A DNA stretch of 30,494 nt, from IMG/VR virus record IMGVR_UViG_3300030107_005002, positions 1 to 30,494 of that record. One strand, 5' to 3'. Numbering within the stretch: the first letter of the stretch is position 1; the number at the start of each line of letters is the position of its first letter. The position numbers were made by a program, and so were the translations under genes. The notes beneath the pieces are model-generated. The model did not search any database. It was not told the DNA's origin and saw only the letters and a program-made list of their open reading frames with translations. Positions 2,232 through 20,015 of this stretch are shown here, piece by piece. Source of the stretch: a virus.

Positions 2232-2444
2232 ATGGGAAGAGCAATAGATCAAGACAACAGACTAGATGATCATGAAAGAAGGCTAGAAATACTAGAAGGT
2301 GTTGTTGCAGAGTTGTCTGATGCACTTGTAAATACTAAACAAACAAAAAATGTAGATTTACATGATGCACTAGATGAACATGAGAGAGAACTTAGAAAAG
2401 CTAAGCCAAAAAGAAAATCAAAAAAGACAGTAGAGGTTGACTAG
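2232..2444 (+). CDS. Small acidic/basic helical protein, unknown function
   Basis: This 70-aa protein has an excellent AAGGAG ribosome site 7 bases before ATG. The N-terminal half ('LDDHERRLEILEGVVAELSD') is a coiled coil. A second, similar segment ('DLHDALDEHERELRKA') repeats the D-x-H-E-R-x-L pattern, suggesting an internal duplication. The C-terminus ('KPKRKSKKTVEV') is strongly basic and could bind nucleic acid. No family is recognised. It sits in a row of small, probably early, accessory genes between the annealing/SSB pair and the methyltransferase. Confidence 0.65.
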   Translation: MGRAIDQDNRLDDHERRLEILEGVVAELSDALVNTKQTKNVDLHDALDEHERELRKAKPKRKSKKTVEVD

Positions 2445-2482
2445 TATTGCACAAAAGATAAGAGATTATCTGAAGAAGAAGT

Positions 2483-2710
2483 ATGGCAATTCCAGTTATA
2501 AAACTTCTACAGGAAAAACCATTAAATCTGTACGTATGCAATATGTGCAAGACAAGGACAATAAAAAGTAAGTTTTCTTGGAAGAGTTGGTTTACTGGAA
2601 CTGAATTAATAATATGTAGAGATTGTGCCTATAAAGAGTCATTTGGTACAAAGAAAATAAAGAAAGCAAAAAAAGAGAGAATACTTGAGCAGAAAGAAAT
2701 TAACGAATAA
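2483..2710 (+). CDS. Small zinc-ribbon-like protein
   Basis: The 75-aa product carries two CxxC knuckles, C19-x2-C22 ('CNMC') and C45-x2-C48 ('CRDC'), 22 residues apart. This is the spacing expected for a single structural zinc site of zinc-ribbon type. The C-terminal third is a lysine-rich helix ('KKIKKAKKERILEQKE') suited to nucleic acid or protein binding. The family is not recognised. Comparable small phage zinc proteins often act as transcription modulators or inhibitors of host enzymes; that is only an inference. The ribosome site is a weak GAAGAAG run. The end overlaps the next gene by 26 bases in another frame. Confidence 0.66.
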   Translation: MAIPVIKLLQEKPLNLYVCNMCKTRTIKSKFSWKSWFTGTELIICRDCAYKESFGTKKIKKAKKERILEQKEINE

Positions 2711-2912
2711 AGAAATTACTAATGCTATTGAAGGTCTTAGCAGGAACGATCAGATATTGTATAAGGAAATTATTGAAATGAAACAAGCTTTTGCCTTATA
2801 TTTAGATTACAGAAAAGAATCCTTTAAGGAAGATACAGAAGGATTTAATGATTTCGTCAAAGCTAAAACAGAAGAGTTTGAAAAACAACAACGATCTAAA
2901 ATTAAAACATGA
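2685..2912 (+). CDS. Small helical protein, TTG start, unknown function
   Basis: This 75-aa protein is chosen to start at TTG 2685, preceded by an AGAGAG purine stretch. The frame then runs 'MSRKKLTNKEITNAIEGLS' and continues as charged helices to 'EKQQRSKIKT'. It overlaps the zinc-ribbon gene at its start and the next gene by 65 bases at its end. That amount of overlap is larger than elsewhere in this region and makes the exact boundaries of the neighbours uncertain. No family is recognised. The composition (many K, E and aromatic residues, no hydrophobic segment) indicates a soluble, probably oligomeric protein. Confidence 0.6.
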   Translation: MSRKKLTNKEITNAIEGLSRNDQILYKEIIEMKQAFALYLDYRKESFKEDTEGFNDFVKAKTEEFEKQQRSKIKT

Positions 2913-3267
2913 ACTTGATTCTGTATATATAGATTCAAGTGGTGGTAAACATCTGAAATATGATGAGGCATTGTGTGCTGAAGCACAAATACAGGCATGC
3001 ATACAACGTAAATTAGAAGAAAGAGAAAAGGTCATGGAAATAGTAGAACTAGTAATGCAGATTCTTAAAAGTGAAAATTGGGGAGTTTATTATAAGAACC
3101 AACCAATACAGCCTCTTGAAATGCAAGATGGCAATTCACTTTATAAGGTAAATCAAGTTGACGAAAGTGATATTGAAGAAGCAATAGAGACAGCGTTAAC
3201 AAAGGATAAGCCTTGGGAATCTTCGCAGATAAATTCGAGTCAGAACAACAACTCCACGAGTGGTTGA
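2848..3267 (+). CDS. Hypothetical early protein, start uncertain
   Basis: The 139-aa frame uses ATG 2848 with AAGGA five bases upstream. An alternative TTG at 2878 would shorten it by 10 residues and reduce the large overlap with the previous gene. The middle (about residues 25-100) looks globular: 'ELDSVYIDSSGGKHLKYDEA' followed by two long helices and 'ENWGVYYKNQPIQPLEM'. The C-terminus is acidic, then Ser/Asn-rich and probably disordered. There are two Cys but no metal-binding pattern. The family is not recognised. It overlaps the following small gene by 55 bases, so three consecutive genes here share coding DNA. Confidence 0.62.
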   Translation: MISSKLKQKSLKNNNDLKLKHELDSVYIDSSGGKHLKYDEALCAEAQIQACIQRKLEEREKVMEIVELVMQILKSENWGVYYKNQPIQPLEMQDGNSLYKVNQVDESDIEEAIETALTKDKPWESSQINSSQNNNSTSG

Positions 3268-3425
3268 TAACTTTCTATGAGAAACAGTTAGTTTCGTTTC
3301 TCAGTGACATTGGAGGCGTTACATCGTATGGTGTAAAAATAACACCGACCCTTGTAAAGTCTACAATTAAAAGGTATTCTCAACTATTGGAGAATAATAA
3401 TGTTACTGATTGGAAACAGTCTTGA
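3213..3425 (+). CDS. Small hypothetical protein, TTG start
   Basis: The 70-aa frame begins at TTG 3213, preceded by AAAGGA at a good distance, which supports this start despite a 55-base overlap with the previous gene. The product ('[20 protein letters not shown]...') contains aromatic and hydrophobic residues typical of a folded helical domain, then '[20 protein letters not shown]'. No motif or family is recognised. It overlaps the methyltransferase start by 26 bases, so it is likely translated with it and may be a small partner, though nothing shows interaction directly. Confidence 0.55.
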
Positions 3426-4308
3426 AAAAATAGACGAAATAGAAGAAAAGTCAGTACAAGCTATCGTAACTTCACCACCTTATTGGGGTCTTAGAGACTA
3501 CAAGGCAGATGGTCAGTTAGGTGAGGAGCTTGTTCCTGAAGAATTTGTAAAAAACCTCACCACATTGTTCAATAAATCAAAACGAGTACTTAAAGATGAT
3601 GGCACTTTATGGCTGAATATAGGTGATACTTATTTCGGTGCTAAAGGTGGTCATTGGGATGGTGGCAATTCTATTACTAATGATAGTACAGGTGGTAATT
3701 ATAGAATGCAACGTAAAGCACCACCAAAACATCCTAGATTAAAAACTAAGGACTTAACAGGAGTGCCTTGGATGTTAGCATTTTCTATGCAAAAAGATGG
3801 ATGGTATTTACGTCAAGATATTATATGGCATAAGCCTAATCCAATGCCAGAGGCAGTTAAAGATAGATGTGTTAAGTCACATGAGTATATATTTTTATTC
3901 TCATTAAAGCCTAGGTATTATTTTGATTATAAAGCAATACAAGAACCAGCAGCTTATGCTGGAGATAATAGATCATTAAGAAATGATGCTAGAAGAGGTG
4001 AACCAATGGCAAATGCTATCGCAGCCAATACGCAGCCAACACAAGAGTTTAGAAATAAACGTAGTATATGGACTATCAATACTGCTCAATCAGGTGAGGC
4101 TCACTTTGCTGTATTTCCTGAGAAAATTCCTGAACTTTGTATAAAAGCAGGAACAAAAGAGGGAGACGTGGTACTTGATCCTTTTATGGGTAGTGGTACT
4201 ACTGCAAGTGTTGCACAAAGACTTGGTAGAAAATGGATAGGCATTGAACTTAATGAAGACTATGCACAAATAATAAACAAGAAAACAGCACAAGGAGAGC
4301 TATTTTAA
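3400..4308 (+). CDS. Beta-class DNA methyltransferase (amino-methyltransferase, N4-cytosine or N6-adenine)
   Basis: The 302-aa protein transfers a methyl group from S-adenosylmethionine to an exocyclic amino group in DNA. The catalytic motif [11 protein letters not shown] (SPPY at residues 25-28) is near the N-terminus. The SAM-binding motif DPFMGSGTT (260-268) followed by '[13 protein letters not shown]' is near the C-terminus. This order defines the beta class, and length is normal for a solitary enzyme. TSPPY is more often seen in N4-cytosine enzymes, but N6-adenine cannot be excluded. No restriction endonuclease is adjacent. It lies within the replication region and ends TAATG, sharing one base with the helicase start, so the two are translationally coupled. 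Protection of phage DNA from host restriction is the likely role. The recognition sequence cannot be predicted. Confidence 0.9.
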
Positions 4309-5648
4309 TGAACAAGTTACCAAATGAAGCAGATATAGAGATTGCTGTCATTGGTGGCGTTATAAACAATCCTCGTAAATATAATGATATAGCTAAATAC
4401 ATTGTTTCTAATGATGTATGGTATGAAAATAAATCAAGAGTGCTATGGGAAGTAATTACAGGAATGGTCAAAAGAAGAGAGCATATAGATATGATTACAC
4501 TTACATCTACATTAACTGAAGATGATAAAGTTGTAGGAGTAGATGCTGTCTTTATAGTTGATTGTACAAATAATGCACCAACTGAATCAGCATTAGAGGT
4601 TTATGCTAAAAAGATATATGAAAAATATCTATTAAGATTAGTAGTAGACCAAGCAAAAGAAATAGAAGAAACAGCACTTGATAATAAAGTTAATGCAATG
4701 GATGTTCTTGTATCAGCACATACATCTATTGGTGAGCTTATAAACCTTAGACCTGATAGTACATTTGATATTAATGAGGCTCTTGGTGATGCAATAGAGT
4801 CAATAAGAAATACAGATAAGCTATTAATAAAAACTGGATTCAAGAATGTTGATGACTTTGCAGGTGGATTAACAAGAGGTGAGATAACAATAGTTGGTGG
4901 TAGACCAGGCCATGGTAAGTCAACTATGCTTTTAAATATGTTAAGCAATGTTTTAACATCTAAAAAGAAAGTAATGCTATTTAACAGAGAGCTTACAAAC
5001 GTAGAGGTCTTGAAGAAACTATTAGCATTGGAATCTGGAAAGCTATCATATGGAATGATACGTCAAGGGATGTATGAGCAAAGTCAATTACAAGAGCTTG
5101 ATAGAGTTCGTGAATTTATAGCAAAGAAATATTGCACAGAAAGATTTAGAATGTTTGACCAAATAAAAGACTTTCCTACATCTGCAACAGAAATAAAGAA
5201 ATTTAAACCAGATGTTATATTTGATGACTATATTCAATTAATAACACCTGCAGGTAAAGAAGACCAAAGAAGATTACAATTAGAGAGAATTGTTAATGAT
5301 TACAAATGGATTGCAAAAGAATATAAATGCTCAGTAATTTTAGCTTCACAATTAAACAGGGCTTTGGAAACAAGAGGAACACAAAGACCCCAATTATCTG
5401 ATATAGCAGAAAGTGGAGCAATAGAACAAGTTGCTGAAAATGTATTCTTTGTTTTCTATCCATATAAGGTTAGTGGAAAACCTGAAGAGAAAAACGCAAT
5501 GACACTTGTAGCTGCTAAGGTTAGATATGGAGAAACAGGATCAGTACAAATGGCTTATGATGGAGATAAATGTAAAATTTATAATGACACAGAAGAGCTG
5601 TTTGCACCATCCTTAACGGAGGCAGAACAAGATGAAATCCCCTTTTAA
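4308..5648 (+). CDS. DnaB-like replicative DNA helicase
   Basis: This is a 446-aa hexameric RecA-fold helicase that unwinds DNA 5'-3' at the phage fork. Residues 1-~150 form the DnaB N-terminal helical domain ('PNEADIEIAVIGGVINNP...'). The motor domain follows: Walker A GGRPGHGKST (197-206, K204), the H1a-like 'MLFNRELTNVEVLKKLLA', Walker B 'PDVIFDDYIQL' (D306/D307), motif H3 'SVILASQLNRALETRGTQRP' and 'LSDIAESGAIEQVAENVFFV' of H4. It is close in length to bacterial DnaB. The last residues are DEIPF, resembling an SSB C-terminal tip; those codons overlap the start of the next gene. No helicase loader or separate primase is seen in the window. Confidence 0.93.
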   Translation: MNKLPNEADIEIAVIGGVINNPRKYNDIAKYIVSNDVWYENKSRVLWEVITGMVKRREHIDMITLTSTLTEDDKVVGVDAVFIVDCTNNAPTESALEVYAKKIYEKYLLRLVVDQAKEIEETALDNKVNAMDVLVSAHTSIGELINLRPDSTFDINEALGDAIESIRNTDKLLIKTGFKNVDDFAGGLTRGEITIVGGRPGHGKSTMLLNMLSNVLTSKKKVMLFNRELTNVEVLKKLLALESGKLSYGMIRQGMYEQSQLQELDRVREFIAKKYCTERFRMFDQIKDFPTSATEIKKFKPDVIFDDYIQLITPAGKEDQRRLQLERIVNDYKWIAKEYKCSVILASQLNRALETRGTQRPQLSDIAESGAIEQVAENVFFVFYPYKVSGKPEEKNAMTLVAAKVRYGETGSVQMAYDGDKCKIYNDTEELFAPSLTEAEQDEIPF

Positions 5649-6153
5649 AAAATGTATAGGTATTGACCCAGGAAAAGGTGGTGGTATAGCCATCATCACA
5701 GATGAGACAGTAACCCTTCATAATTGTCCACGTACAGTAGACGATATGGCTCTCCTGTTAGGTATGTGTCTCAACGATGTCGCAGCATATAGGACTCAAG
5801 TATTCTTAGAAAAAGTATGGGCATTCCCTACAGATGGTAGGGCTGGGTCATTTACCTTTGGTGAGAATTATGGACAATGGCAAGGAATACTTGCATCACA
5901 TGAACTAAAACCAAAACTAGTAACACCAAAAGAATGGCAGTCACATTTCGATATTAAAAAAGGTTTAAAAAAGGATGTAAGAAAGAAAATTTTAAAGCAG
6001 ATAGCTAAAGATAAATGTCCAAATATTAAAAAAGTAACACTTAAAACTGCTGATGCACTACTTATTGCTATTTATGGCATAGAGGCTCATTTAAGCTATG
6101 AAAAGGATTTACCTTGGGTAGAGCCTAATAAAGAAGAAAAAGTAGCTATATAG
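5632..6153 (+). CDS. RuvC-like Holliday junction resolvase
   Basis: The 173-aa protein has the RNase H-like fold of RuvC-type endonucleases that cut four-way junctions or branched replication intermediates before packaging. 'GIDPGKGGGIA' gives D12, 'QVFLEKVWAFPTDGRAG' gives the second acidic residue E60, and 'KTADALLIAIYG' gives D141. Length is close to E. coli RuvC (173). The position three residues before D141, usually acidic in RuvC, is Lys here, so the metal site differs. The start overlaps the helicase by 17 bases and follows a GGAGG-like site. It is the last gene of the + strand operon. A role in resolving recombination intermediates made by the upstream annealing protein is inferred. 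Confidence 0.87.
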   Translation: MKSPFKKCIGIDPGKGGGIAIITDETVTLHNCPRTVDDMALLLGMCLNDVAAYRTQVFLEKVWAFPTDGRAGSFTFGENYGQWQGILASHELKPKLVTPKEWQSHFDIKKGLKKDVRKKILKQIAKDKCPNIKKVTLKTADALLIAIYGIEAHLSYEKDLPWVEPNKEEKVAI

Positions 6154-6196
6154 TCCTATTTTGGCTTAATAACGTGATAGTGATTAAATAGTAGGA
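6154..6196. terminator. Possible weak bidirectional terminator between converging operons
   Basis: The two opposed operons meet here with a 30-base spacer. TCCTA (6154-6158, followed by TTTT) can pair with TAGGA (6192-6196, preceded by AAATA), so both strands would have a short stem beside A/T runs. The stem is only five pairs and the loop is long, so the call relies mainly on the convergent layout. Confidence 0.25.
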
Positions 6197-9100
6197 TTAG
6201 AAAAATATAACTTTTTATATTTTTGCTTTCTTATGATTTTGTTGAAATGCCTTTCTCTAAATTTGTGAATCTTTTCAAGTTTTGTTGCAAGCATCTTATC
6301 TTCAGGTGTCAACCAATCATAAAATTGATTTAATAATGTTTTTGAAGTACCTTTTCTACTATCTGAAATATTTAAAGGACTGTAGTGAGACATAACTTGA
6401 CGCACAGCTCTTTTTGCCTTTTTATATAATCCACGTTGAGTCATAAATCTATTCTCTCTTGACATAATTTGCATAGAGCTACTAATAGCATCCCAATAAC
6501 TTTCTGCTATTTCTTCATCTGTTCCAAACATTAGTTTATTTTTTAAGTCTCTATAAAAAGGTGCTTTTCTACTTACGATACCATCACCAGAATATAATTC
6601 CATCCCACGTGATTCTTTAAACTTTCTAACTAGTTGTCTCATATTGTTAAAATCTTTAAAGTATGGAGACCTTGTTGTCTTTATTAACTGATCAGCTTGA
6701 TTAATGGCTACAAATGTTCTTTTTGACCAATCTAAAGTAGCATCAGAGAGAGATTTTCCTTCTTTATTCATTAAGTTATATTGTTTCTTTGCCTCTAAAA
6801 TATTTCTTATAACAATTGGTTCAGAAAATGGTACTGCAAGTTCTTTCTCATAAGGATTAAGACCTGGTATTACTTCAGAAAATAAACCAAAAAATTCTGA
6901 TCTCCATAAGTTTAATAATATGTTTGAAAACCCATCATCTTGAGTAAGTTCGTCTCCTGTTGGTTTTTGTTTTCCAAATGCTTCTTGGTAAAACCAGTAT
7001 AAAAGTTCACCACTTATAGCATGAGATACAGTTGCCCTTAATAAAGGTTTAAAGTTTCCATATTGAGCAATAGGCTTGATAACATTTCTATACATATCTA
7101 TTGTTGTAGCCATTGCCATTCTATGGAATAATGTTAAAGGTTTTACTTCCTTTTTAGACATCCATAATGGAAGCATAGCAACAGATGTTCCACCTTGAGC
7201 AGATACATGAGAAAAGTGTCCTACTTTATGCATTATCTCAGCAAGCATAGCTTTGTTTTCAGGCGTAGTAAAATCTTTTGTTTTTTCAATAAAATTTATT
7301 TGATCATCTGATAAGTGCCATACCTCACTCATAACATTTTTCATTCTATCTTTTGTTGTGCCCATTTTAAATAGCCCTGACTCTCCACGAACCTTAGCCA
7401 TTGCTTCAGTAAAATATAAGTGTCCAGCATGAGAAGATATAATTCTATTTAAATTTTCTGTTTTAGTCATTAGGTTAAATTGAAACATTTTCCTTAAATT
7501 AAATCTTCCAAAACCTTTATCTTCGAGTTCTAATGTTCTAGCACCATACTCTAACTGTCCTTTACGTCTTGCATCGTTCCATGATGTAGCATCCATTGCA
7601 TGAAATATTGCTTTTGCTGTTCTTCTAAATCCATATAAAGAGATAGCCCTAGGTATACCAATAGCAAGGTTTTTAAGACCAGAGGTTGGAGATGACAATC
7701 CTGCAACAGCTGAAATACTTGCAAGAGAAGAACCAATTCTACTTCCTGGTAATGTTAATGGATCGGCTGTATCTAGCCCAAGCTGTCTTTTAATTGACAA
7801 GTCGGCATATCTAACCATTTCATTATTTTCACCTAATCTTGCTATTTTACTTTTTGATCCTAAGTCCATAAGATGTTGACTTCCTTCATTAGTCCACTCA
7901 GGAAAATAAGTAAGATTTGCAAGATATTTAGACATACGATTTACATATGCTTCTCCAGTTCCCTGTAGAGTGTTGTCATATACATCAATTTCTATCAATC
8001 TTCCCCTATTATCTGTAACCTTTATTTTCTCATCTAAGAGACCTTTACGTGGAATTAAGTGAGGATTTTTAACATTTCCATAACCAAATTTTAAAACATT
8101 ATAAATTTCATTTCCTATTTCCTCCCTTAAATCTTTTCCTTTTTGTGATTCTGGGTCTAAATATTCTTTTTCTATACGTTTTTTATCTGCGTCTGTTTTT
8201 CCTTCTTTCAGTGCATATTTTTTTGCAACTCTCTTAACTTCATTATTTGCTAAATTTCTTATATAATTATTATCAGGTTTGTCTAAAACATATTTATAAA
8301 AATCTTTAGTAACTGAACGTGTCATATACCCATCAACATATACTTCTTTCATTTCTTTTAAAATACGTTTTGCATCTTCATGTGTATGATGTTGTAATAA
8401 TATTTTTCTTCTATGATCCCAAATTTCTTCTGTATATTTATTCCAAACTTCCCAAGCTCTATATTCATCAGAATTTTTATCTATTCCTTTTCCATCTTTA
8501 TCTCCATATATTTTTTCATAAAAATCCTTTTGCTGCTCAGTCATTGTTCCATCTTCATAGTTTCTTTTAGCTCTTTCTTTATCAAAGATAATAGATGCAT
8601 CGTCAGATTTTTTTCTACCTACAATTGGAACTTTTCCTTTTACCTTAGTTTTTAAATCTTTTGCAGTTTCTATAGAACCTTTATCAAGCGTATTTTTTAC
8701 AATGGATAAAGCTTCTTGGCCTGGCCCATTGAATAAAACATGTTCAGCATATTCATGATTAATTATTTTTTCTGACAATGCTCTTCCAGCCTTACCTCCA
8801 AACTTTCTTAAAACTAACCATACAGGCATAACACCTCTTCCATAAGCCCATAAAAGTTTATCAGTTCTACTTTTAACACCATCTTCTTGGGTTAATAGTG
8901 CTATATTAGTAAAAGATGTATCCTTCTTAGTAACAGGATCATAATTATTCCTAATAAAAGACTCATAAGTTTTAACAATAAAATCATCTGCATTCTCATA
9001 TTTTCCATCTTCAACACCCATAAGCTCTAACCTAGATTTTGCAATATCTGGATGAATATTATATTTATTATTTATATCTTCTATCCTTCTTACAACTGGC

Positions 9101-12100
9101 TCAGTATTACGTTTATTTGGCCCTTTATTAAGCCCATGACCTGTAATAAATTCTTCATACTGTTGCATTTGATCTAGTGTTATCTTATCTATATTATATG
9201 TTGTATCTCCAAATATCTCTATTCTTTTTGCTCTCCAGTTCTTATAATCTCCATCTCTAACCTTTCTATCTAGGCTATTTATTTCTCCACCTGCATGCAA
9301 ATTATCACTTATTTCCTTTATTTGATCTCTTACAGTAGGATTTTCTTTAGATGTTTGATATTTAGTAATAAAATCTTTTCTTTGTGTCTCTGGCAAATCA
9401 CCTTTTAATACTTTTTCACCAAGAATACGAGTAACATCAGTTTTATTATGTACTCCAAGTTTATGCTTTAAATGACTCCAAAATTTTCTAAGGAAATTTT
9501 TAACCTTAGATACTGTTGTTTTATTTTTAAGCCTTCCAGCAACATATTCTCCAATAGATTGAACCATGTTTTCTTCTGGACTTTTACTTCTATCTACATT
9601 TTTAAACATACGTTCACCATCACGTATAATATCTTTACTTTTCTTATCTCCAAAGGCACGTAGAACATCAACAACGTGGTGAGAAACCTCATGAGGAATT
9701 GTATCTATTGCAGCTTTACCCTCAGCTATTTCAATAAGACGACCAGTAATACGACCAAGAACTTCTTCTCCTTGAAATTTTCCTAAATCTTTTTTTAGTT
9801 GTATATCAAGCTCAGGATATTTTTTCTTAAAAAATTCTATCTGTTTTTTTAATTGGTCAACACTAATATTTAGAGTTTTAGCAGCAGACTCAAGTTGATA
9901 TTTAACTTCTTTAGTTCCAAATAATTCTGATATTTTAACTCTTCCATCTTCTACTGAAATATTTTCATTTAAAATATCTTTTAAAATTCCACTAAGCTGA
10001 ACTTCCGTAGAGGGTTTTAAAGTTCCTTTGTAAAATGTATCAGCAGTATCTGTTGTACCTTCGTGTCCAAGGAAATATTTAAGAAATTCTTTTTGCCTAT
10101 GAGTCATGCCTATCTCATCTGCTCTTGTTTCTATTAGTTTTCTTGAATCTTCTATCTTGATATTTTCTTTATACTTCTTATCTTTAAGAATTTTACTATG
10201 TGTATTTTTATCAAAAATAACATCACTATTTTTTAAACCTTTTTCATTGGCAAGTTTTTTAATATTGTCATATGTTTTTTTAGTAATTTCAACTTTTCTT
10301 GGATTACCACCACCCTTTCCTATATAAGAAGCTTTTACATGATAATAATATTTAGTATCCTTACCAACTTTTAAAGACTTAATATCTTCAACTTTTAATT
10401 TATTTAATTCTGCTGTTCTTATAGAAAGACCTTCTTCCAAATGGAGATCAGCTGAAATGTGCATTTCTTTTTGTTGTGTAGAAGATTTATCAAACTCAGG
10501 AAGCTTTGATATAGTTTTTTTAATATCTTTTTTTAAATCTATGCCTGCTATATATTCTTTTCTTTCTTGTGCTCTTTCTTTTATTATTTGGTTGGCAAGT
10601 CTAAAGGCATCTTTTAAATCTTTTTGTCTAAAGGGTCTGTTTGTAAGCCCTTGATATGTAGTCCATTCTTTGAATTTTGAAAATGCAGTTGCAACTGCAG
10701 GTGCTGAACCTTTTAGACCTTCAATCTTACCATCACCTATTGCTTGTATTATTCTTGTTATATCGTTACCTGTGAGCTGTTCAGTTGATCTTTTTCCAAG
10801 ATATTCCAATCCCTTTGCTATATATCTAACAGCACTTCTACTTCCTTCACCTTGGTTTACCCATTCTAATAATATATCTTTAGTATTACTATCTTTAATT
10901 TCTGGAATATATGTACTCTCAGTGGACTCTCTATTAAAATCTTCTATTGTTTTTTCAACCTCAGACCAATCTCTCTTCTTTATTTTATTCTTTATTTTAC
11001 CAGCAACGTCACTTACAATTTGTTGTATTCTTCCAGAGATAGACGATATATCTGTTTTGCTTCCTGCTACTGAAGGAGCATCAAAATCTTGTATAGCTTT
11101 TTTCTCATCTAAAATTAATTTTTGAGCTTTTGCTCTATCTGTATCAACATCAAGATTTAAATTGTCAATATCAGCATATTCTAATATATTGCCATCTTGA
11201 TCTTTTCTTATACTTCCATCCTTATTTCGCATTATATTTTCTTCAATAACACGATTTTTCTTCCAAATACGATCTGCATTAAATCCATGTATTGATGCTT
11301 GATTTATTGCATTCTCACCACTCCATTGATCTTGTATCTTATGAAGTGCCTCTTTCTGCTTCTCAAATTTATGCAATAAGGTCTTATACATTGGATTAAC
11401 CTCATCCTTAGCATGCTCTATAAGTTTTTCAAGAGTTCCAATTTGTTTTAAGACATTACTAATAATCTTTTTTGCACGAGCAGGAGAAGCTTCTGTGATC
11501 CCATCTTTATGATCATCAATAAGAGATTTTGTTTCTTTTCTTGCGTTCTCTAGCTCATCTCTAAGGTTTAAATATTGTTCATCTACATTGGTTTTTTCTT
11601 GAGCTATTATATCTGCAGCTGCATCAATAGCATCAGCCTCATCAATTTCTCCCTTCTCTCTTTTAGCCCTTGCCTGTGCTCTTAGGTCTAATTCTGACTT
11701 ATCTTTAATTTGACTATCACGTGTCTTACCATTTTCATCAACACCAAGCTTTATTTTTTCAGCTTCTTCTAAAAGTTTATAATTTTCTAAACTTTTATTA
11801 AATGTTTTAGACATGCCTTTTGAGAGTCCAAATAAACCAAGTTCAGCAATAAATCCTTTTTTAACATCATCCCATCTTACATCTTCACCTTTTGCTATTT
11901 GGTGAACAATATCACCTGCATTAAATGCTGCATCTTCAGCAACTATTTGTCCTAAATCTCCAGTAGCCCCTAATGTGATCTTTTCTCCAAATGTTAATGT
12001 TCTAGTAGCATCTTTAGCCCCTCTTGTTCCAAGTTTACCTGCTTTAGTAAATTTATTTAAAGAATGTGCATGCTTATAAGCGAGACCTCCACCTGCTACT

Positions 12101-12750
12101 CCTGCAAGTCCACCAAGTACTCCTCCATGAACAACGCCAGAACCAATAGCACTTAATACATCTTCCCCATTGCTAGCTGCTTGCATTCCATTCATAGCAC
12201 CTTCATAAGTACCCATAGTAGCACCTTGCCTTGTTGCATTTTCAACCATTTTTTGTGCTAAAGATTGTTCTATTTTTTTCTTTGCAGCCACCTTAGCAGT
12301 TGTAGCACCAAATCCTTTTAATAATAAATTCCCAGCACCACTACCAGCACCTAATGCAATAATATCAAGTGGCATAAAAAATGACAATCCCATAGAAAGA
12401 ACATCTTCCATAAAATCTGGATCATATTCAGAAAGATTAAATCTTTGCTCTCCAGTTAAAGCTTTCTCAGTCATACCTGTAAGAGAATTTGTATATGCAG
12501 CTTTCATCCAATCAGCAGAATTTTCATCAATTCCCCAATCAAACCATTCTTTAAAACCATTTATAGCACTAGCATCTGTGTTTACATTTTTCTTTTTAGT
12601 TCCTCTTTCAAGATCAACTTCATGCCATGTAAGATCAGGATTTTTAGTTTTGACAAGACTATATACTTTTTTATCGTCTAAATCATTAGACCATGGATTT
12701 TCTGCACGATATGTATCAAGCTCTTTTTTTACATTTAATGGTATTGACAT
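6184..12750 (-). CDS. Giant polyvalent-type internal virion/ejection protein with recombinase-like and zincin domains
   Basis: This is a 2188-aa protein, far longer than T7 gp16 (1318 aa), with an AAAGGAGA site before ATG. Visible order: an N-terminal region followed by hydrophobic segments (about 117-150) and a Gly-rich segment (200-225, 'VVHGGVLGGLAGVAGGGL'); coiled-coil helices (about 310-600); a tyrosine-recombinase-like domain (about 627-912) with R778, K812, R870, H896 and candidate nucleophile Y907; a metallopeptidase motif HEVSHH (1020-1025); then mostly helical sequence with a hydrophobic patch near 1670-1720 ('SSPTSGLKNLAIGIPRAISL') that resembles large polyvalent-protein-associated (LPD38-like) regions. 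It is the last gene of the structural operon, after three internal-virion-like genes, so injection with the DNA is likely. The enzymatic roles are inferred. No lytic transglycosylase motif was recognised. Confidence 0.78.
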   Translation of the reverse strand: MSIPLNVKKELDTYRAENPWSNDLDDKKVYSLVKTKNPDLTWHEVDLERGTKKKNVNTDASAINGFKEWFDWGIDENSADWMKAAYTNSLTGMTEKALTGEQRFNLSEYDPDFMEDVLSMGLSFFMPLDIIALGAGSGAGNLLLKGFGATTAKVAAKKKIEQSLAQKMVENATRQGATMGTYEGAMNGMQAASNGEDVLSAIGSGVVHGGVLGGLAGVAGGGLAYKHAHSLNKFTKAGKLGTRGAKDATRTLTFGEKITLGATGDLGQIVAEDAAFNAGDIVHQIAKGEDVRWDDVKKGFIAELGLFGLSKGMSKTFNKSLENYKLLEEAEKIKLGVDENGKTRDSQIKDKSELDLRAQARAKREKGEIDEADAIDAAADIIAQEKTNVDEQYLNLRDELENARKETKSLIDDHKDGITEASPARAKKIISNVLKQIGTLEKLIEHAKDEVNPMYKTLLHKFEKQKEALHKIQDQWSGENAINQASIHGFNADRIWKKNRVIEENIMRNKDGSIRKDQDGNILEYADIDNLNLDVDTDRAKAQKLILDEKKAIQDFDAPSVAGSKTDISSISGRIQQIVSDVAGKIKNKIKKRDWSEVEKTIEDFNRESTESTYIPEIKDSNTKDILLEWVNQGEGSRSAVRYIAKGLEYLGKRSTEQLTGNDITRIIQAIGDGKIEGLKGSAPAVATAFSKFKEWTTYQGLTNRPFRQKDLKDAFRLANQIIKERAQERKEYIAGIDLKKDIKKTISKLPEFDKSSTQQKEMHISADLHLEEGLSIRTAELNKLKVEDIKSLKVGKDTKYYYHVKASYIGKGGGNPRKVEITKKTYDNIKKLANEKGLKNSDVIFDKNTHSKILKDKKYKENIKIEDSRKLIETRADEIGMTHRQKEFLKYFLGHEGTTDTADTFYKGTLKPSTEVQLSGILKDILNENISVEDGRVKISELFGTKEVKYQLESAAKTLNISVDQLKKQIEFFKKKYPELDIQLKKDLGKFQGEEVLGRITGRLIEIAEGKAAIDTIPHEVSHHVVDVLRAFGDKKSKDIIRDGERMFKNVDRSKSPEENMVQSIGEYVAGRLKNKTTVSKVKNFLRKFWSHLKHKLGVHNKTDVTRILGEKVLKGDLPETQRKDFITKYQTSKENPTVRDQIKEISDNLHAGGEINSLDRKVRDGDYKNWRAKRIEIFGDTTYNIDKITLDQMQQYEEFITGHGLNKGPNKRNTEPVVRRIEDINNKYNIHPDIAKSRLELMGVEDGKYENADDFIVKTYESFIRNNYDPVTKKDTSFTNIALLTQEDGVKSRTDKLLWAYGRGVMPVWLVLRKFGGKAGRALSEKIINHEYAEHVLFNGPGQEALSIVKNTLDKGSIETAKDLKTKVKGKVPIVGRKKSDDASIIFDKERAKRNYEDGTMTEQQKDFYEKIYGDKDGKGIDKNSDEYRAWEVWNKYTEEIWDHRRKILLQHHTHEDAKRILKEMKEVYVDGYMTRSVTKDFYKYVLDKPDNNYIRNLANNEVKRVAKKYALKEGKTDADKKRIEKEYLDPESQKGKDLREEIGNEIYNVLKFGYGNVKNPHLIPRKGLLDEKIKVTDNRGRLIEIDVYDNTLQGTGEAYVNRMSKYLANLTYFPEWTNEGSQHLMDLGSKSKIARLGENNEMVRYADLSIKRQLGLDTADPLTLPGSRIGSSLASISAVAGLSSPTSGLKNLAIGIPRAISLYGFRRTAKAIFHAMDATSWNDARRKGQLEYGARTLELEDKGFGRFNLRKMFQFNLMTKTENLNRIISSHAGHLYFTEAMAKVRGESGLFKMGTTKDRMKNVMSEVWHLSDDQINFIEKTKDFTTPENKAMLAEIMHKVGHFSHVSAQGGTSVAMLPLWMSKKEVKPLTLFHRMAMATTIDMYRNVIKPIAQYGNFKPLLRATVSHAISGELLYWFYQEAFGKQKPTGDELTQDDGFSNILLNLWRSEFFGLFSEVIPGLNPYEKELAVPFSEPIVIRNILEAKKQYNLMNKEGKSLSDATLDWSKRTFVAINQADQLIKTTRSPYFKDFNNMRQLVRKFKESRGMELYSGDGIVSRKAPFYRDLKNKLMFGTDEEIAESYWDAISSSMQIMSRENRFMTQRGLYKKAKRAVRQVMSHYSPLNISDSRKGTSKTLLNQFYDWLTPEDKMLATKLEKIHKFRERHFNKIIRKQKYKKLYFSNPTI

Positions 12751-12765
12751 CTACCTAGTTCTCCT

Positions 12766-14421
12766 TTATATACGCTTCTCAAATCCACTTCTTTTCTTTT
12801 TTATATTTTCTTTCATTTCTTTTAATTTTTCTTCCCACACATCAGGATATTCTTTTATAAATCTTAAAATATCTTTATTCTCTTTAAGTTTATTTACATC
12901 TTTTAATTGAGACACATGCCTAAATTGTCCTTTGAAATCTATTTCTCCAGTATTGATAAAATATTTAGCAGTATTGACAAGTGCCTGCGTATGTTCTCCA
13001 ACATTTATCATCCCACCATAAAGTTCTTCTTCTGCAATACTTACCTTATCATTAAGATCATCTATGCTTTTAATATTCATTCTTTTAAGGGCTCTATCAT
13101 AAGCTGCCTTACTATTCTTTTTAGCCTGTTCCAATTTTTTAATATCTTTTTTATATTGTGATATTTCTTTCTTTTTCTCTCCACTTTTAGATATAGCATC
13201 AAATGGATTTGTAGTTTCCTTGATTTCCTGTATTTTCTGTTTCTTAGGACTCATCTTTTTTTCAATATATTCCTTAGCCTCATCATATTTTAAATTGCCT
13301 ATTTCATCATCAGACCATTTTAACAATTTGAGTTTATCTATATCATCTTGAGTTAATTTTGGTGGTGGTGGAGTTTTTTGGTATATACGATCATGTATAG
13401 TTTTATCCCTAGTTGCTAAATAGTTTACACCAGTCCTATCTTGGAGAGTAGTGTTGTCAATCTTTAATTCATCGTCTGCTTTTTGGCTTGCCTGTTCTAA
13501 CGCTTGTAATTCGTGAGGCTCAATATTTAACTGACCATTTTCATCAAATAGTTTCATATCTTCATATTCTTCTCCCATAAAATCTTCAAGGGAAGCAGCA
13601 CCAGTAAGCATTCCCTTATATTTATTTGCAATCTCAATTTTACTATCCATGCTTTTTATAAGATTCTCACGAGATGTGTTTAGCATTTGCTTTTTAAATT
13701 GTTTAAAATTATTAATTCCTTCCATACTATTAGTATTGAAAGATTGTTTATAAGCATCATATTCTACTTTATCTATTTTATTGTCACTAAAAAAACTATC
13801 AAGCATAAATTCATTTATATATTGTGCCTGAGAAAGGTCTTGCAAGACATGAGAATTATTAGGAAGCTGCAATCTATCTGCATATTCATTAACAAAATTC
13901 TCACTCCAAGCTGTATATTCTTCAGATATTTTTCTAAATTCATCTATTTTAGCTTGATCTGCCTCATCCTCAGTATTATATTGTTTCCCAACTACAAAAT
14001 TTTTTTCATTATCTATAAAATTTCTTACCACTTCAAACTTATCATCCATTTGAGATTTAAATAAATCAAACTTAGCATTTTTTTGATGTTGATAATTAAA
14101 ATTCTCCATGTGAAGTTTAGCAATTTCCATGGTCTCAGAATCCATATTATCATAATTGTTTTCAATATATTTTTTCAACTGACCTCTTTTATGTTCAACA
14201 TCTTTATTATTGTATAGTCTCTCTGTGTCTGCTGAAATACTATTAATAATATTTTTTCTTCCAGCATTCTTTTTCTCTTCCCATTCTTTTCTTCTTTCTG
14301 CTATTACTGATCCAGCTTCTATGCCTTCAAGCAATGCTGTAATATCATCTCTTTTACCACCACTAGGTCTATATGTACTTTTTTCTGAAAGAATTTGATT
14401 TAATGTTTCTGAAATACTCAT
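12766..14421 (-). CDS. Large helical internal virion-like protein
   Basis: The 551-aa product is almost wholly charged alpha-helix with coiled-coil stretches (about 30-110, 400-450 and the Lys-rich C-terminus), and it has no hydrophobic segment. A short proline run ('TPPPPK', about residue 350) separates two halves. An acidic 'DNKIDKVEYDAYKQSF' segment near 210 looks EF-hand-like but incomplete. No enzymatic motif is recognised. It sits between a 279-aa protein and the giant 2188-aa protein, with a 15-base gap to the latter, at the position held by gp15-type ejection proteins in T7-like phages. A scaffold-like or ejectosome tunnel component is a reasonable inference. The start has a GGGAG site. 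Confidence 0.62.
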   Translation of the reverse strand: MSISETLNQILSEKSTYRPSGGKRDDITALLEGIEAGSVIAERRKEWEEKKNAGRKNIINSISADTERLYNNKDVEHKRGQLKKYIENNYDNMDSETMEIAKLHMENFNYQHQKNAKFDLFKSQMDDKFEVVRNFIDNEKNFVVGKQYNTEDEADQAKIDEFRKISEEYTAWSENFVNEYADRLQLPNNSHVLQDLSQAQYINEFMLDSFFSDNKIDKVEYDAYKQSFNTNSMEGINNFKQFKKQMLNTSRENLIKSMDSKIEIANKYKGMLTGAASLEDFMGEEYEDMKLFDENGQLNIEPHELQALEQASQKADDELKIDNTTLQDRTGVNYLATRDKTIHDRIYQKTPPPPKLTQDDIDKLKLLKWSDDEIGNLKYDEAKEYIEKKMSPKKQKIQEIKETTNPFDAISKSGEKKKEISQYKKDIKKLEQAKKNSKAAYDRALKRMNIKSIDDLNDKVSIAEEELYGGMINVGEHTQALVNTAKYFINTGEIDFKGQFRHVSQLKDVNKLKENKDILRFIKEYPDVWEEKLKEMKENIKKKRSGFEKRI

Positions 14422-14424: not shown

Positions 14425-15264
14425 TTAACTCCCTTTCGCATCTGGTAATTTACTTAAAACTTCTAAAAAAGTCTTCTTACTTTTTTTCATTCCATGCTTA
14501 GTAACTAATCCTCCAAATCTTGCCTTATCTTCAAGCCACCCAGGTTGAACCCAGTCACTAATGCCAGTTTCAAATTCATCGCCTGCAGCTTCTTCTAATT
14601 TATATATACTCCTATCCCTTGTCTGACCTGCTTCTTTAAATGATTCAGCAATATCTTCCTGCTTAGACTTCATTCCACGCATACCTCCCATCATTCCAGT
14701 ACCATAAACATTGCCCATAGCACCAGTAAATCCACGTGCTTCTTTTTGTACACCATAAACATCTTTCTCATAATCTTCTTGTACATAATCAAGCTCTTCC
14801 TGCTCTGGCCCTTGATACCTAGATAGATTATCTATGATGTTTTGTCTTAGTTCATTTCCTTCTATTCCTGGCAATAGTGGATTTATCTCTTTATATATCT
14901 CCTCTACATCTTTAGGACTTCCATCAGCATTTATAAACATTTCTTTAGTAAGTTGAGGTGCTCCCCAATCACTACCAGTGCTAGTAATTTCGTCAGTCTT
15001 TAAGTCTGTTTTTCCAAAATTAGAACCTGTCTTAGGGTTTTTAGCTATCTCCAAAGCAGCATCTTTCCATCCCTGCTTCTTAGCATAATCATAATTACTT
15101 GAATGTAAAAGTGTAAAGTCATCCATTGAACCTCCTGAAGGATAATACGCTACTTGCCATTCGGATACTACTTGTCCAAATTTAGGTTTACGCCTTGTAA
15201 TATATATATTACCCTGACTATCTGTGTGACCTGCATTAACCCATTTTTTCCAAGCATAAGCCAT
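14425..15264 (-). CDS. Structural/internal virion-like protein, unknown family
   Basis: The 279-aa protein begins with a beta-rich, aromatic segment ('WQVAYYPSGGSMDDFTLLHS') and continues into mixed helices. It has a Gly/Met-rich stretch ('GTGMMGGMRGMKSKQ', about 190-205) that could be flexible or membrane-interacting. The C-terminus has 'ISDWVQPGWLEDKARFGG', then basic helices. No catalytic signature is visible. The ribosome site (GGGAGG) is strong, and it is 3 bases from the next gene and 6 from the previous one, so it is co-translated with the other internal-virion candidates. It may be a component of the ejection apparatus; this comes from position only. Confidence 0.58.
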   Translation of the reverse strand: MAYAWKKWVNAGHTDSQGNIYITRRKPKFGQVVSEWQVAYYPSGGSMDDFTLLHSSNYDYAKKQGWKDAALEIAKNPKTGSNFGKTDLKTDEITSTGSDWGAPQLTKEMFINADGSPKDVEEIYKEINPLLPGIEGNELRQNIIDNLSRYQGPEQEELDYVQEDYEKDVYGVQKEARGFTGAMGNVYGTGMMGGMRGMKSKQEDIAESFKEAGQTRDRSIYKLEEAAGDEFETGISDWVQPGWLEDKARFGGLVTKHGMKKSKKTFLEVLSKLPDAKGS

Positions 15265-15270
15265 ACTAAT

Positions 15271-16311
15271 TTACCTCCCTAGTTTTTGTGATAGTGATTG
15301 AATATTATTTCCCCCAAGAGTTTTACCTTGAGATGCAAAATATTCAGTAATTGTTGGTTGAGGTTTTTCTGTATTCTGATTACTAGATTGCATTTGATTT
15401 CCTTCACCTAAAAGAGAAAGCAATGATGCTAATTGATCCATTTCAAAAACTTGACCACCATCCTCGTAGATTAATCCACCATATTCTTTTTTTTCTACTT
15501 CTTTGTTTTGTAAACGCCATAACTTCCATTCGTCTTGCTCTTGTGGGCTCATTGTTCCCCATTTATTAGAATCCATCTCACTCCATTCATCACCCCCTGT
15601 CTCCATATTGTTATCCTCACCAGTACCACCACTAAGTTTTACTTCATTTTCTACAACATCTTCACCCTCAGTATCATCACTATCTTCACTATCCTTGTCA
15701 AGTAATTTGGTTGGGTCTTGAGCAGCACCAAGAATCTCACTTAATGTCAATCCTTCTCCTTTTTCACCAATTTTTGTAAATTCTGTAAATTTCTTACCTA
15801 GTTTGGTATCATCAAGAGTTCCTGCCATTACTTCTTGACCAGTTGCATCAATTAATTCTCTTCCAAGATTTGTATCATCTGGTCGTAATTGTTTTTCTAA
15901 TTCAGACTTTAAAGTGTCTACTTCTTTTCCTGCGTATCCATACTTATCTACAACGTCAAGTTTAGAAGTATCAGGCTTCAGTTTATTAGTTATACCTTCA
16001 GCGAATTTTTTTGCTGCTATAGATGATAAAGCAGTCAGTGCTATTTGAGCAATTGCACCACCTGGAATAAATGACATCATAGGTGACTTAGTTAGCCCTG
16101 CTATAAATTTTCCACCAGCTCCAGACATAAACTTAGCTAACCCTTTTTGCATTCCTCTTTTTAGAAGTTTTTGTCCACCTTTTTTGGCTATATTTTTTGC
16201 TACTGTATGTTTGGTAGCATCACTTTGTATATCTGTTTGTGCAGATGTTAACTGATCTTCTAATCCCTGCATTATAGATTGTCTTCTTTTTCCTGCTAAA
16301 CTTACTCCCAT
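15271..16311 (-). CDS. Internal virion-like protein with hydrophobic segment and acidic linker
   Basis: The 346-aa protein has three parts. The N-terminus is basic and helical (residues 1-60, 'GGQKLLKRGMQKGLAKFMSG'). A hydrophobic Gly/Ala segment follows ('MSFIPGGAIAQIALTALSSI', about 78-97) that could insert in a membrane. A very acidic, low-complexity middle (about 205-245, Asp/Glu/Gly) leads to a Gln/Ser-rich tail. A small hydrophobic virion protein placed just after the fibre and before larger helical proteins matches the gp14-like slot of T7-type ejection systems. No family match is claimed. The start has AGGAGA before ATG; the gap to the fibre gene is 9 bases. Confidence 0.6.
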   Translation of the reverse strand: MGVSLAGKRRQSIMQGLEDQLTSAQTDIQSDATKHTVAKNIAKKGGQKLLKRGMQKGLAKFMSGAGGKFIAGLTKSPMMSFIPGGAIAQIALTALSSIAAKKFAEGITNKLKPDTSKLDVVDKYGYAGKEVDTLKSELEKQLRPDDTNLGRELIDATGQEVMAGTLDDTKLGKKFTEFTKIGEKGEGLTLSEILGAAQDPTKLLDKDSEDSDDTEGEDVVENEVKLSGGTGEDNNMETGGDEWSEMDSNKWGTMSPQEQDEWKLWRLQNKEVEKKEYGGLIYEDGGQVFEMDQLASLLSLLGEGNQMQSSNQNTEKPQPTITEYFASQGKTLGGNNIQSLSQKLGR

Positions 16312-16320: not shown

Positions 16321-17604
16321 CTAACTATTTTTTAAATTATTTATTTCTACTTGCATTGCATCTATTTTTGCTGATAATTCTTGTATTGATTTAACCATCA
16401 TTGGTATCATTTTTATTGTTGATAAAGATTTAAAGTCATTTACCTCAACACCATCTATCTCTTCTTTTAGATTGGCATCAACATACTGAGGTGCTATAGT
16501 CAATACTTCATCTGCTATGAATCCATATCTAGTTATACCATCATCTAAAGTCATATCTGCTTTACCATTATATTTAAATGTTCTTGGTCTTAATTGATTA
16601 ATAATATTTAAACCATCTGAAAGATCAGTTATATCTTTTTTAATTCTTATATCAGATATGCTATGAACTGTTCCATCATTTGTATAAAAATCTCCATTAG
16701 AGTTTAAAATTCTTAACCTAGTAGTGCCAGTTATATAATCTAAAATATAAAAATTTGGAGTAGAACCACTTGTACCTGAAGAATTATCTGTTCTTAAACT
16801 CCAAGCTATTCTTTGATAATCACCAGCATCAGAAGTATCATCATCTCCATTATTATCTACAGATTGCCACATATTAATTTCCGTATCTTGCCCAACACCA
16901 TTAGCAGGATAAACATTTATCTCTCCACAGTGAAGTCTTCCTTTCTCTGTGCCTTGATCTCCAATATGTATATTCTCACTTAAATAAACATCAGTTACAG
17001 CATAGTTCCCTATAGTGCATGTATTATTAGCTACACCTTCAGCACCCTTACCTATAACAATACGATTTGTTGAACTAGCAGGAGTACTTCTTGATGCAAT
17101 AGCTTCATGTCCTACAATTGTATTATCACTTCCAGTTGTAATATCAAGCCCAGCCTCTACTCCTAAAAATACATTTGAGTCTCCTGTTGTTAATGCTTTT
17201 CCAGCTTCCAAACCAATTATTGTATTATCGTTAGCACCAGATTCTAAAGAATTACCTGCATCAACTCCAATAACTACATTATTTTCTCCAATATCTTTAT
17301 TTCCAGTTCCCATGCAAACATTTTGAGTTCCTTTACTAGATAAAGTAATCTTACCTTTTAAATTAATTTCATCTACACTAAGAGTGTTAGCAGAGTTCAT
17401 TTTCCCTTGGTCAGTTTCACTAGATAAAAATGTACTATGCCACGTACCACCAAGCTTTACAAATATCTTTGCTCCAATTTTGGTTTGTCTTAATTGTATA
17501 TCTCCATTATTACCTTCATTAGGACTTGGAGCACTTAAAGAATTGACAATCTTTGGTCTCTTTGCACTATTCCATTCTAATTTTCTTGATCTATCACTTG
17601 ACAT
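16321..17604 (-). CDS. Tail fibre with YadA-like repeats and C-terminal S74 intramolecular chaperone
   Basis: This 427-aa fibre or tailspike-type protein has a central block (about residues 100-170) with four imperfect ~20-residue repeats of the type 'NNVVIGVDAG', 'NTIIGLEAG', 'NVFLGVEAG', 'NTIVGHEA', as in trimeric beta-helical YadA-like stalks. The C-terminal ~110 residues are an S74/intramolecular chaperone autoprocessing domain: 'SISDIRIKKDITDL' with Ser317 as predicted cleavage residue and Lys322 five residues later, then 'YGFIADEVLTIAPQYV' and a closing coiled coil. In this family the domain trimerises the fibre and then cuts itself off. The start codon shares a base with the stop of the nozzle-like gene (TAATG), indicating coupled synthesis and probable attachment to the same tail tip. 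Confidence 0.86.
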   Translation of the reverse strand: MSSDRSRKLEWNSAKRPKIVNSLSAPSPNEGNNGDIQLRQTKIGAKIFVKLGGTWHSTFLSSETDQGKMNSANTLSVDEINLKGKITLSSKGTQNVCMGTGNKDIGENNVVIGVDAGNSLESGANDNTIIGLEAGKALTTGDSNVFLGVEAGLDITTGSDNTIVGHEAIASRSTPASSTNRIVIGKGAEGVANNTCTIGNYAVTDVYLSENIHIGDQGTEKGRLHCGEINVYPANGVGQDTEINMWQSVDNNGDDDTSDAGDYQRIAWSLRTDNSSGTSGSTPNFYILDYITGTTRLRILNSNGDFYTNDGTVHSISDIRIKKDITDLSDGLNIINQLRPRTFKYNGKADMTLDDGITRYGFIADEVLTIAPQYVDANLKEEIDGVEVNDFKSLSTIKMIPMMVKSIQELSAKIDAMQVEINNLKNS

Positions 17605-20015
17605 TATTTTATTGGTCTCAATCTATATACTATTGTTATATCATTTATTTGAAAATCTTCACCACAAGAACCTGTAAATTTTAAAGCAATACTTTTAATA
17701 GTATCAGGCTGTGAATCTATTGTAAACGTTGCAACTGTATGGTCAGCTACTCCATGATTTGTTAAGGTTGCATCAGAAGTTCCAGCATTTGTCATGGCTG
17801 TGTCTGGAGTTGAATCTCCATTTAAACCACAAGTTCCAGTTAAAGCATTTGCATCCCCTTGGTATGTAACATATATTTTAAATATTTTCTTTGTTTGATT
17901 TGGAAATCCAAAATCAATATCTTTTGTTATATAGGTAACTGTTTGTGCATTGCCACTAGCTTGACCTTGACTATAATTATATAAAGTAGTAACATCATCT
18001 ATAAGAAAGCTTAAATATCCTTTTGCAGATACAATAAAATTAGTATGCCTCCCTCCAGCTGCATTTGTAAATATGTCAATTCCTTCAGTCCATGATTGAG
18101 TTGGCATATTGTAAACCCATGCATTTTGATCTGTTGAATCATCATTAATATCTTTAAGAACAATAATATTTTGTGACCTTGGATCATATCCAACACTAGG
18201 AACGCCAGCACCTTCATCTCCAATAGCAGAACCTTCATCGTTTGGTAAATCCCAAGCAGCATCATCGAATTTACCACCAGTTAGAGAGATAATCTTACTA
18301 CCATCATAAATATAGCATCCATGTTTATTTGCAAAGATAATACCAAATGAAGCAGTAAATACTTGACATGGATTATGAACACCACAATCTCTATAAGCTG
18401 CTTCAGCATAAAACTTCTCAGGATTTGAAATATTTATAATATACAATCCATTTTCTTTAAACTGTAAAATTGTATCACCATATGCTGCAAGGGCAGTTAT
18501 AGCTGACCCATCAGATGAAGGAGAGTCAAAAGTATTTAATAATGGAAATACCCCAGGTTTTCCTGGCATAGAAAACATCATTGCATCAGGTCTATGAGTA
18601 CCATTAAATTTTACATTCCCAATATAAACAATACCACCTTGACCAACAACAGCAGTTTTATAATAAACAAGATAGGCTGTAGGTCTTCCACTTGTTGAAT
18701 TTGGAGATTTTGAATAAACTTCATTTGCAGCATATCCATTTAATGATTGATATGTATATACTTCTGGAGGGTCTTCAAATACAATATTACTTCCTAAATG
18801 ATATATATTAGTTGCTGATTCCTCCCAAGGAGTAAATGTAGAATCTAAAGCACCTTTTATTCCTTCTACTAAGCTAACTTCTGCAAGAAGGTATCTTTCT
18901 TTGGTTCCAGGTGGCATAAAATATATTCTAGCACCTTCAATCCTTTTATCTCCACCAACAGGGCCACCATTTGCATGGTGTATGCTAACATTAAGTTCAC
19001 ACGTTTCATTGGAAAAGCCATTATCTGATCCAAGACAAGTTAGGCCAGTCTCAGTTCCTCCATCAAAAAGCCAAGAAATATAAAAAAAATATGTACCATT
19101 CCATGTACCAGTATTAGCGTCCATAATTGCAACTTCAAGCCTTCCTGCAGCACCAGCATCATTATGAGTACCTTTCATTTCAACATCATTTGTCGTACTT
19201 GCTGAGTAATCAGGTGAATCAATAAGTGCCTTACCTGAGCTAACCCAACCACTAATACCTACAGTACCATTTATATCTGATCTATTAACGTACATTTTTG
19301 CTCTACGAGCATTACCTGTATTGGCAAAATTTGCATCAGCAACATATACCCCATTACCTGCTGCATAAAAAACAAATGCAGTATCGTCATTATCATTGCC
19401 TCCAAAGTCTATTTGTGTGTTTCCATTTAAGCCAGCTGCATCATGAGAATCTACCCTATCACCATCAGCAGAATATGTTATAACTGTTTCTCCTGTAGTG
19501 TCATCTTTATCTGCTGGAGCAGTAAATTGAAATAGACCATAACCTGCAGTACACCTGTTAGTTGTACCTACAGCATGAGTAGTAATGCTATTCTCAGTAT
19601 TTTTACAATCTCCAAGTAGTTTTATAGAACCAATACTTGAAAAAGTAATATTTTTAGCTTCTTGACATTCGTTTTCAGAAATATCACGTGGTGAAGAGCT
19701 TTGATTAACTCCTTCATGAAATTGAGATAATTGATATATCTTCTTATTTGCTCCTGCTGAAGCTGGTAATGCTTGAAATCCAGCAGGTACAGCTTGTTGG
19801 TTTACAACACCTGTAAAGGCAGTAGAACCTACGTTAGAAATAGAAGGAATTGAGGGCTCAGGTGTTTGGGACAGTTCTTTTTTATCCAATCTAGCCCTTT
19901 CTTTAGCTAGTATTTTATCCTTATCCTTCCAAGTGCCTCTCCCATATTTATTTTCAAAAGCTCTTCTTTGTCTAGCAAATTCATCACTAACCATTTTATC
20001 CCAGCCACTACCCAT
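17604..20015 (-). CDS. Tail nozzle / tail-tube B-like protein
   Basis: In this 803-aa protein, residues 1-~90 are charged, then low-complexity. From about 93 the sequence 'IYQLSQFHEGVNQSSSPRDI' and 'SENECQEAKNITFSSIGSIK' resembles the opening strand of nozzle proteins of T7/P22-type podoviruses (gp12 or gp10-like), where a beta-propeller plug begins with 'F-x-G-G-x-N-x-...-D-x-x-D-N-E'. The remainder is beta-rich with scattered Cys, often in pairs ('CGVHNPCQVF'). It has the expected size and lies upstream of the fibre and internal virion genes, as in T7. It would form the distal channel of a short tail. The family is recognised by pattern, not by search. Confidence 0.68.
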   Translation of the reverse strand: MGSGWDKMVSDEFARQRRAFENKYGRGTWKDKDKILAKERARLDKKELSQTPEPSIPSISNVGSTAFTGVVNQQAVPAGFQALPASAGANKKIYQLSQFHEGVNQSSSPRDISENECQEAKNITFSSIGSIKLLGDCKNTENSITTHAVGTTNRCTAGYGLFQFTAPADKDDTTGETVITYSADGDRVDSHDAAGLNGNTQIDFGGNDNDDTAFVFYAAGNGVYVADANFANTGNARRAKMYVNRSDINGTVGISGWVSSGKALIDSPDYSASTTNDVEMKGTHNDAGAAGRLEVAIMDANTGTWNGTYFFYISWLFDGGTETGLTCLGSDNGFSNETCELNVSIHHANGGPVGGDKRIEGARIYFMPPGTKERYLLAEVSLVEGIKGALDSTFTPWEESATNIYHLGSNIVFEDPPEVYTYQSLNGYAANEVYSKSPNSTSGRPTAYLVYYKTAVVGQGGIVYIGNVKFNGTHRPDAMMFSMPGKPGVFPLLNTFDSPSSDGSAITALAAYGDTILQFKENGLYIINISNPEKFYAEAAYRDCGVHNPCQVFTASFGIIFANKHGCYIYDGSKIISLTGGKFDDAAWDLPNDEGSAIGDEGAGVPSVGYDPRSQNIIVLKDINDDSTDQNAWVYNMPTQSWTEGIDIFTNAAGGRHTNFIVSAKGYLSFLIDDVTTLYNYSQGQASGNAQTVTYITKDIDFGFPNQTKKIFKIYVTYQGDANALTGTCGLNGDSTPDTAMTNAGTSDATLTNHGVADHTVATFTIDSQPDTIKSIALKFTGSCGEDFQINDITIVYRLRPIK

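Follow-up and report, generated by a model that had tools for sequence, protein, structure and literature searches.

A tyrosine-recombinase-superfamily domain inside a giant virion-type protein of an environmental podovirus lineage

A tyrosine recombinase encoded by a phage is usually taken as a sign of lysogeny or of dimer resolution, and the locus described here raises the question of what such a domain would be doing in the middle of a giant protein that appears to belong to the virion. The window, i.e., the whole stretch of DNA that was analysed, is a virus record of 30,494 bases, a metagenomic contig and probably a fragment. It encodes P0001, a predicted protein of 2188 residues (6184..12750, minus strand), whose reading frame has no internal stops and which occupies the same place in relatives. 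An earlier note on this DNA had placed a tyrosine-recombinase-like domain at 10015-10872, and this interval corresponds exactly to residues 627-912 of P0001 on the minus strand; the frame is open throughout, and the plus strand of the same interval is full of stops. While these coordinates are right, the domain is slightly longer than proposed. According to the profile matches, a predicted structure, fold searches, and the equivalent domain of the relative L034, it spans residues ~615-925 (9976..10908, minus strand) and consists of a SAM-like core-binding part (~615-745) and a catalytic part (~745-925), all boundaries being approximate.

The genomic setting gives a first indication of what P0001 may be. 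It is the final gene of a structural block, preceded on the same strand by genes for an 803-residue tail or internal virion protein (17604..20015, minus strand; phrog_511 internal virion protein, E 1.8e-5), a tail fibre, proteins of 346 and 279 residues (14425..16311, minus strand), and a protein of 551 residues (12766..14421, minus strand), an order that is repeated in relatives. By position and synteny, the 346-, 279-, and 551-residue proteins are candidate ejection proteins, the last of them, which has no PHROG match, standing in a gp15-like position. On the long contig of the relative L033, the block opens, on the strand of the giant gene, with a terminase, a P22-like portal, and an SU10-type capsid protein. 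P0001 has no PHROG match among the known gp16 families and no detectable sequence similarity to them; it is its position, closing a podovirus structural and ejection block, that corresponds to gp16-like proteins, and this place in the operon makes it quite likely that P0001 is a gp16-like ejection protein of a podovirus.

Positions 1-6153 carry, on the plus strand and convergent with the giant gene, a likely SSB, a likely DNA methyltransferase, a DnaB helicase (phrog_19, E 8e-71), and a RuvC-like protein, of which the SSB, the methyltransferase, and the RuvC-like protein were named by eye; at the point of convergence, the stop codons lie ~30 bases apart. A metallophosphoesterase (21119-21898; phrog_221, E 2e-24) is located within the structural block and kept in relatives, and positions 22089-28995 hold a run of fibre-like proteins with common 'GIGT..PS' motifs, which differ between relatives. 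The DnaB and the phosphoesterase match broad families only. A tblastn search of 50,697 phage records with P0001 and its relatives L041, L073, L088, and L094 returned no match, and hence neither a cultured relative nor a host can be assigned.

Taken alone, P0001 gives only faint signals of homology: the integrase family phrog_216 is matched at E 0.0046 and Pfam Integrase_1 at E 0.031, below the cut-off, with no match to PF00589. Given the weakness of this evidence, we gathered relatives: 18 loci were reached through the 803-residue protein, 11 through the zincin-like region of three giants, and 53 through the C-terminal region; patterns derived from P0001's own recombinase domain and from its C-terminal part found no relatives. 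Removal of identical and contained sequences left 52 giant-protein sequences, P0001 included, some of which are fragments. An HMM whose seed was the segment on the N-terminal side of the zincin detected the module in 16 giants, in each of which it lies mid-protein, and the alignment of these 16 domains, which we call subtype A, is referred to as A9. Compared with all PDB sequences, the A9 profile matches XerA (5hxy, 3.2e-9), an archaeal XerC-like protein (4a8e, 1.9e-8), and XerD (1a0p, 2.9e-6), and in these alignments the R1, R2, H3, and Tyr positions pair with the catalytic residues of Xer, from which a clustering of these residues in the fold would follow indirectly. In L034, which is 36% identical to P0001 overall, the equivalent domain lies in the same place and matches PF00589 at 8.1e-14, above the curated cut-off; the N-terminal part in L038 matches Phage_int_SAM_1 above the cut-off. 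Once the relatives are added, the similarity seen in these profiles is far beyond chance. The same profile also matches, at 2.4e-6, chain 14 of PDB 9i5v, a chain of 401 residues in a ribosome entry.

The predicted structure leads to the same family. An AlphaFold2 model built with the 16-row alignment (pLDDT 81.2, pTM 0.70) replaced an earlier one that was based on 8 sequences and was poor near Y907. The best 12 Foldseek matches all have the tyrosine-recombinase/topoisomerase IB fold and include Cre, the integron and Tn1549 integrases, lambda Int, topoisomerase IB, and the recombinase-fold repressor SroF (best E 1.2e-3, probability 1.0). All 50 listed VIA-align rows likewise have this fold, among them an archaeal Xer recombinase (Z 12.7, rmsd 9.2 over 239), IntI (Z 12.4, rmsd 5.3 over 243), Cre (Z ~11.5), and topoisomerase IB (Z 10.9, rmsd 3.0 over 160). 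Alignments to Xer and Cre extend along the entire model, and those to topoisomerase IB are mostly confined to the catalytic part. Because the Foldseek E value never falls below 0.001 and the rmsd over the two halves is large, we regard the sequence-profile result as the stronger leg. Collectively, profiles and model make it almost certain that the domain belongs to the tyrosine-recombinase superfamily in both fold and homology, and the integrase fold anticipated in the earlier note is the one that the model and the fold searches return.

Does the domain retain an active site? The canonical hexad, R-K-H-R-H/W-Y, is incomplete in P0001, as had been pointed out: five of the six positions are present, namely the box-I arginine R778 (10417..10419), the beta-hairpin lysine K812 (10315..10317), the box-II arginine R870 (10141..10143), the box-III histidine H896 (10063..10065), and the presumed nucleophile Y907 (10030..10032), and E867 (10150..10152) stands at the position of the box-II His, all on the minus strand. 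The motifs and residue numbers quoted for this set were all correct. In a MAFFT alignment of the 16 subtype A domains, which are 14-49% identical to P0001, the only invariant columns are those of R778, E781, R870, and Y907; H896 is conserved in 14 of the 16 domains, and a lysine occupies the column of K812 in 13, the other 3 having it one column away. This conservation among homologues agrees with the catalytic role that had been assigned to R778, R870, H896, and Y907. In a ranking of 316 positions by conservation, the first five places go to Y907, R870, E781, R778, and H896 and the eighth to K812, and the combinatorial chance of finding five catalytic positions among the top eight of 316 is ~2e-9 if the columns are taken as independent. 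The column of E867, by comparison, ranks 154th of 316 and never holds a His in the 16 domains, the box-II His being present only in L034. For the less diverged pairs, dN/dS within the domain is well below 1 (0.126/0.70 and 0.025/0.084).

As judged from these alignments, the R-K-R-H-Y set is selectively kept in the lineage, and such a pattern would be expected from selection for DNA cleavage chemistry, going beyond the needs of a bare DNA-binding fold. It is therefore probable, as far as sequences can tell, that the domain has retained its chemistry. R-K-R-H-Y without the box-II His is the set used by type IB topoisomerases, and the absence of this His makes nicking-closing of the topoisomerase IB type somewhat likelier than efficient four-strand recombination.

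The recombinase domain has a conserved neighbor. A putative zincin-like metallopeptidase region (residues ~950-1150; 9301..9903, minus strand) carries the motif HEVSHH (9679-9693), whose HExxH, at residues 1020-1024 and ~110 residues after Y907, is conserved in relatives. At 65% identity in comparisons of P0001 with two relatives, this region is the best-conserved part of the middle segment; it has no Pfam peptidase match.

The recombinase domain itself behaves as an exchangeable cassette: one relative lacks it, another has it swapped, and several carry degenerate versions. The giant protein of L030 (L030:767-5410, 1548 residues) can be aligned with the first ~470 and the last ~1010 residues, with the recombinase-zincin segment absent. 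Between L033 and L028, identity is mostly 55-86% but drops to 15-31% across residues ~480-900 of L033, returning to high values ahead of the zincin. In 2 pairs, synonymous divergence is lower in the domain than in its flanks (dS 0.084 versus 0.43-0.50 in L038/L052, and 0.70 versus 1.06-1.16 in L027/L033), pointing to a more recent exchange of the domain piece. Giants of ~1500-1660 residues (L072, L073, L074, L076, L077, L087, and L093) have no recombinase module detectable by the family HMM.

Other relatives carry variant modules, which are of two kinds at least. Subtype D (L037, L046, L048, L053, L056, and L064) is related to subtype A (hhalign E 9e-10) and matches an XerC-like protein at E 0.0024. 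In subtype B (L028, L035, L040, L059, L061, L062, and L067), the recombinase slot is occupied by a fast-evolving module that largely lacks R1 and K and has remnants resembling box II and box III; its relation to subtype A is weak (hhalign E 2e-4, over the R-H-Y part), a comparison with the PDB gave no recombinase among its matches, and we do not claim these modules as proven recombinase domains. Since some relatives have degenerate modules, without R1 and K, or no module, the domain is not essential to virion function in this group. The giant of L078 (L078:4484-11596) combines FtsK-gamma (PF09397, E 3.2e-14; residues ~579-637) with an integrase SAM-like core-binding domain (PF13495, E 2.1e-10; residues ~859-943) and has no evident catalytic part; such a combination of Xer and FtsK elements is unusual for a virion-type protein.

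On balance, we favor the reading in which P0001 is a podovirus gp16-like ejection protein that contains, beside a zincin-like peptidase, an active and injected strand-transfer domain of the Xer/Int type as an exchangeable cassette. The giant protein would be packaged and then ejected with the DNA, the recombinase domain would perhaps be freed by the zincin, and Y907 would form a 3'-phosphotyrosyl bond, the DNA being rejoined in the newly infected cell ahead of phage gene expression. The likeliest substrate would be the entering phage genome, for release of topology or for end joining and circularisation, as Cre does for P1, with host sites such as dif as a second choice. The window contains 3 lox- or dif-like palindromes, compared with 0-7 in shuffled sequences, and no site stands out. 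More tentatively, the virion may deliver a pre-made, active recombinase or topoisomerase as a swappable module of the ejection protein, with DNA cut and rejoined before any phage gene is expressed.

The earlier note had left the choice between an injected DNA-joining or topoisomerase-like activity and a domesticated DNA-binding fold; for the P0001 lineage, conservation of the active site favors the former, and the degenerate, swapped, and missing versions keep the latter alive. Indeed, the main rival to our reading, if a rather unlikely one, is a domesticated, catalytically inactive clamp that grips the entering DNA without cutting it. T7 gp16-C binds DNA in the cytoplasm (PMC8954989), a recombinase-fold repressor is found among the fold matches, subtype A has lost the box-II His, and both the subtype B modules, without R1 and K, and L078, with FtsK-gamma and a core-binding part but no evident catalytic part, would suit such a role. 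However, DNA binding alone leaves the invariant Y907, R870, and R778 and the near-invariant H896 unexplained at 14-49% identity. Less probable still is an anti-host effector, one of several swappable modules of a polyvalent protein, which upon injection would act on host sites (e.g., dif) or disturb the host Xer/FtsK system. The closest known sequences are indeed Xer proteins, one relative carries FtsK-gamma, a XerD-interacting domain, and module swapping fits the polyvalent-protein theme (PMC5512222), but FtsK-gamma occurs in one relative only, where it is not accompanied by an evident catalytic part, and no host is known.

An active strand-transfer domain might alternatively serve lysogeny, as a virion-borne integrase of a temperate phage. 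The intact pentad and the full hexad of L034 would permit this, yet no lysogeny genes were noticed in the window, and a C-terminal profile scan of limited sensitivity, which covered 84,980 bacterial and archaeal species with one genome apiece, found no prophage copy of the giant; we consider this explanation very improbable. Within 23 related records of 18-64 kb, which are fragments, PF00589 matched nothing outside giant-sized ORFs, and no free integrase was found. Finally, the window being a metagenomic contig, faulty assembly might be suspected of having joined an integrase gene to a structural one, but the same fusion is present in the same place, and open throughout, in independent divergent contigs, which rules out such an artefact for practical purposes.

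The active, injected strand-transfer domain that we favor resembles several known systems without coinciding with any of them. With the Xer/Int tyrosine recombinases (XerA, XerC-like, XerD, IntI, and Cre; PF00589), it shares the SAM-like core-binding and catalytic domains, the order and spacing of R1, K, R2, H3, and Tyr, and significant profile similarity; unlike them, it has Glu in place of the box-II His, lies internally in a virion-type protein of 2188 residues, and, for P0001 alone, falls under the Pfam cut-off. The catalytic fold (Z ~9-11, 3.0-3.3 A) and the R-K-R-H-Y set without the box-II His are shared with type IB topoisomerases, whereas the N-terminal half of P0001's domain is of the Xer/Int core-binding type and the sequence profile matches Xer rather than topoisomerase IB. 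P1 Cre is a phage tyrosine recombinase that serves genome handling rather than lysogeny, and phiCbK gp143 is a free phage tyrosine recombinase with a non-integrating role (PMC3556154). The P0001 domain would similarly be a phage tyrosine recombinase outside lysogeny, but those two are stand-alone proteins and it is part of a virion giant.

As a whole protein, P0001 is similar to the phage polyvalent proteins, which are large and multidomain, with exchangeable enzyme modules and a zincin hub, for which the region with the conserved HExxH is the candidate here; in the main text of the survey by Iyer et al. (2017), an integrase/recombinase domain is mentioned 0 times (PMC5512222). It is also similar to the T7 gp16-like ejection proteins of podoviruses, as the large last protein of an ejection block with mosaic enzyme domains, and differs from them in having no detectable sequence match to them; the known enzyme part of gp16-like proteins is a transglycosylase, and no recombinase appears in the review of these proteins (PMC8954989). 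The view that no ejection protein of this layout has been described agrees with our literature search, covering few subscription papers, in which no description of a virion-borne tyrosine recombinase or topoisomerase IB was found. P0001 is best filed with the polyvalent/ejection proteins, here with a recombinase module for which we found no described counterpart, and a recombinase in such a giant would add an enzyme class to this group. An integrase match alone is accordingly no ground for calling such phages temperate. If, in a lineage of environmental podoviruses, this fold is found nowhere but in a virion-type giant, then DNA strand transfer or control of topology can reach the cell as a ready-made, injected activity, and the virus may deliver such a recombinase at the very moment of infection.
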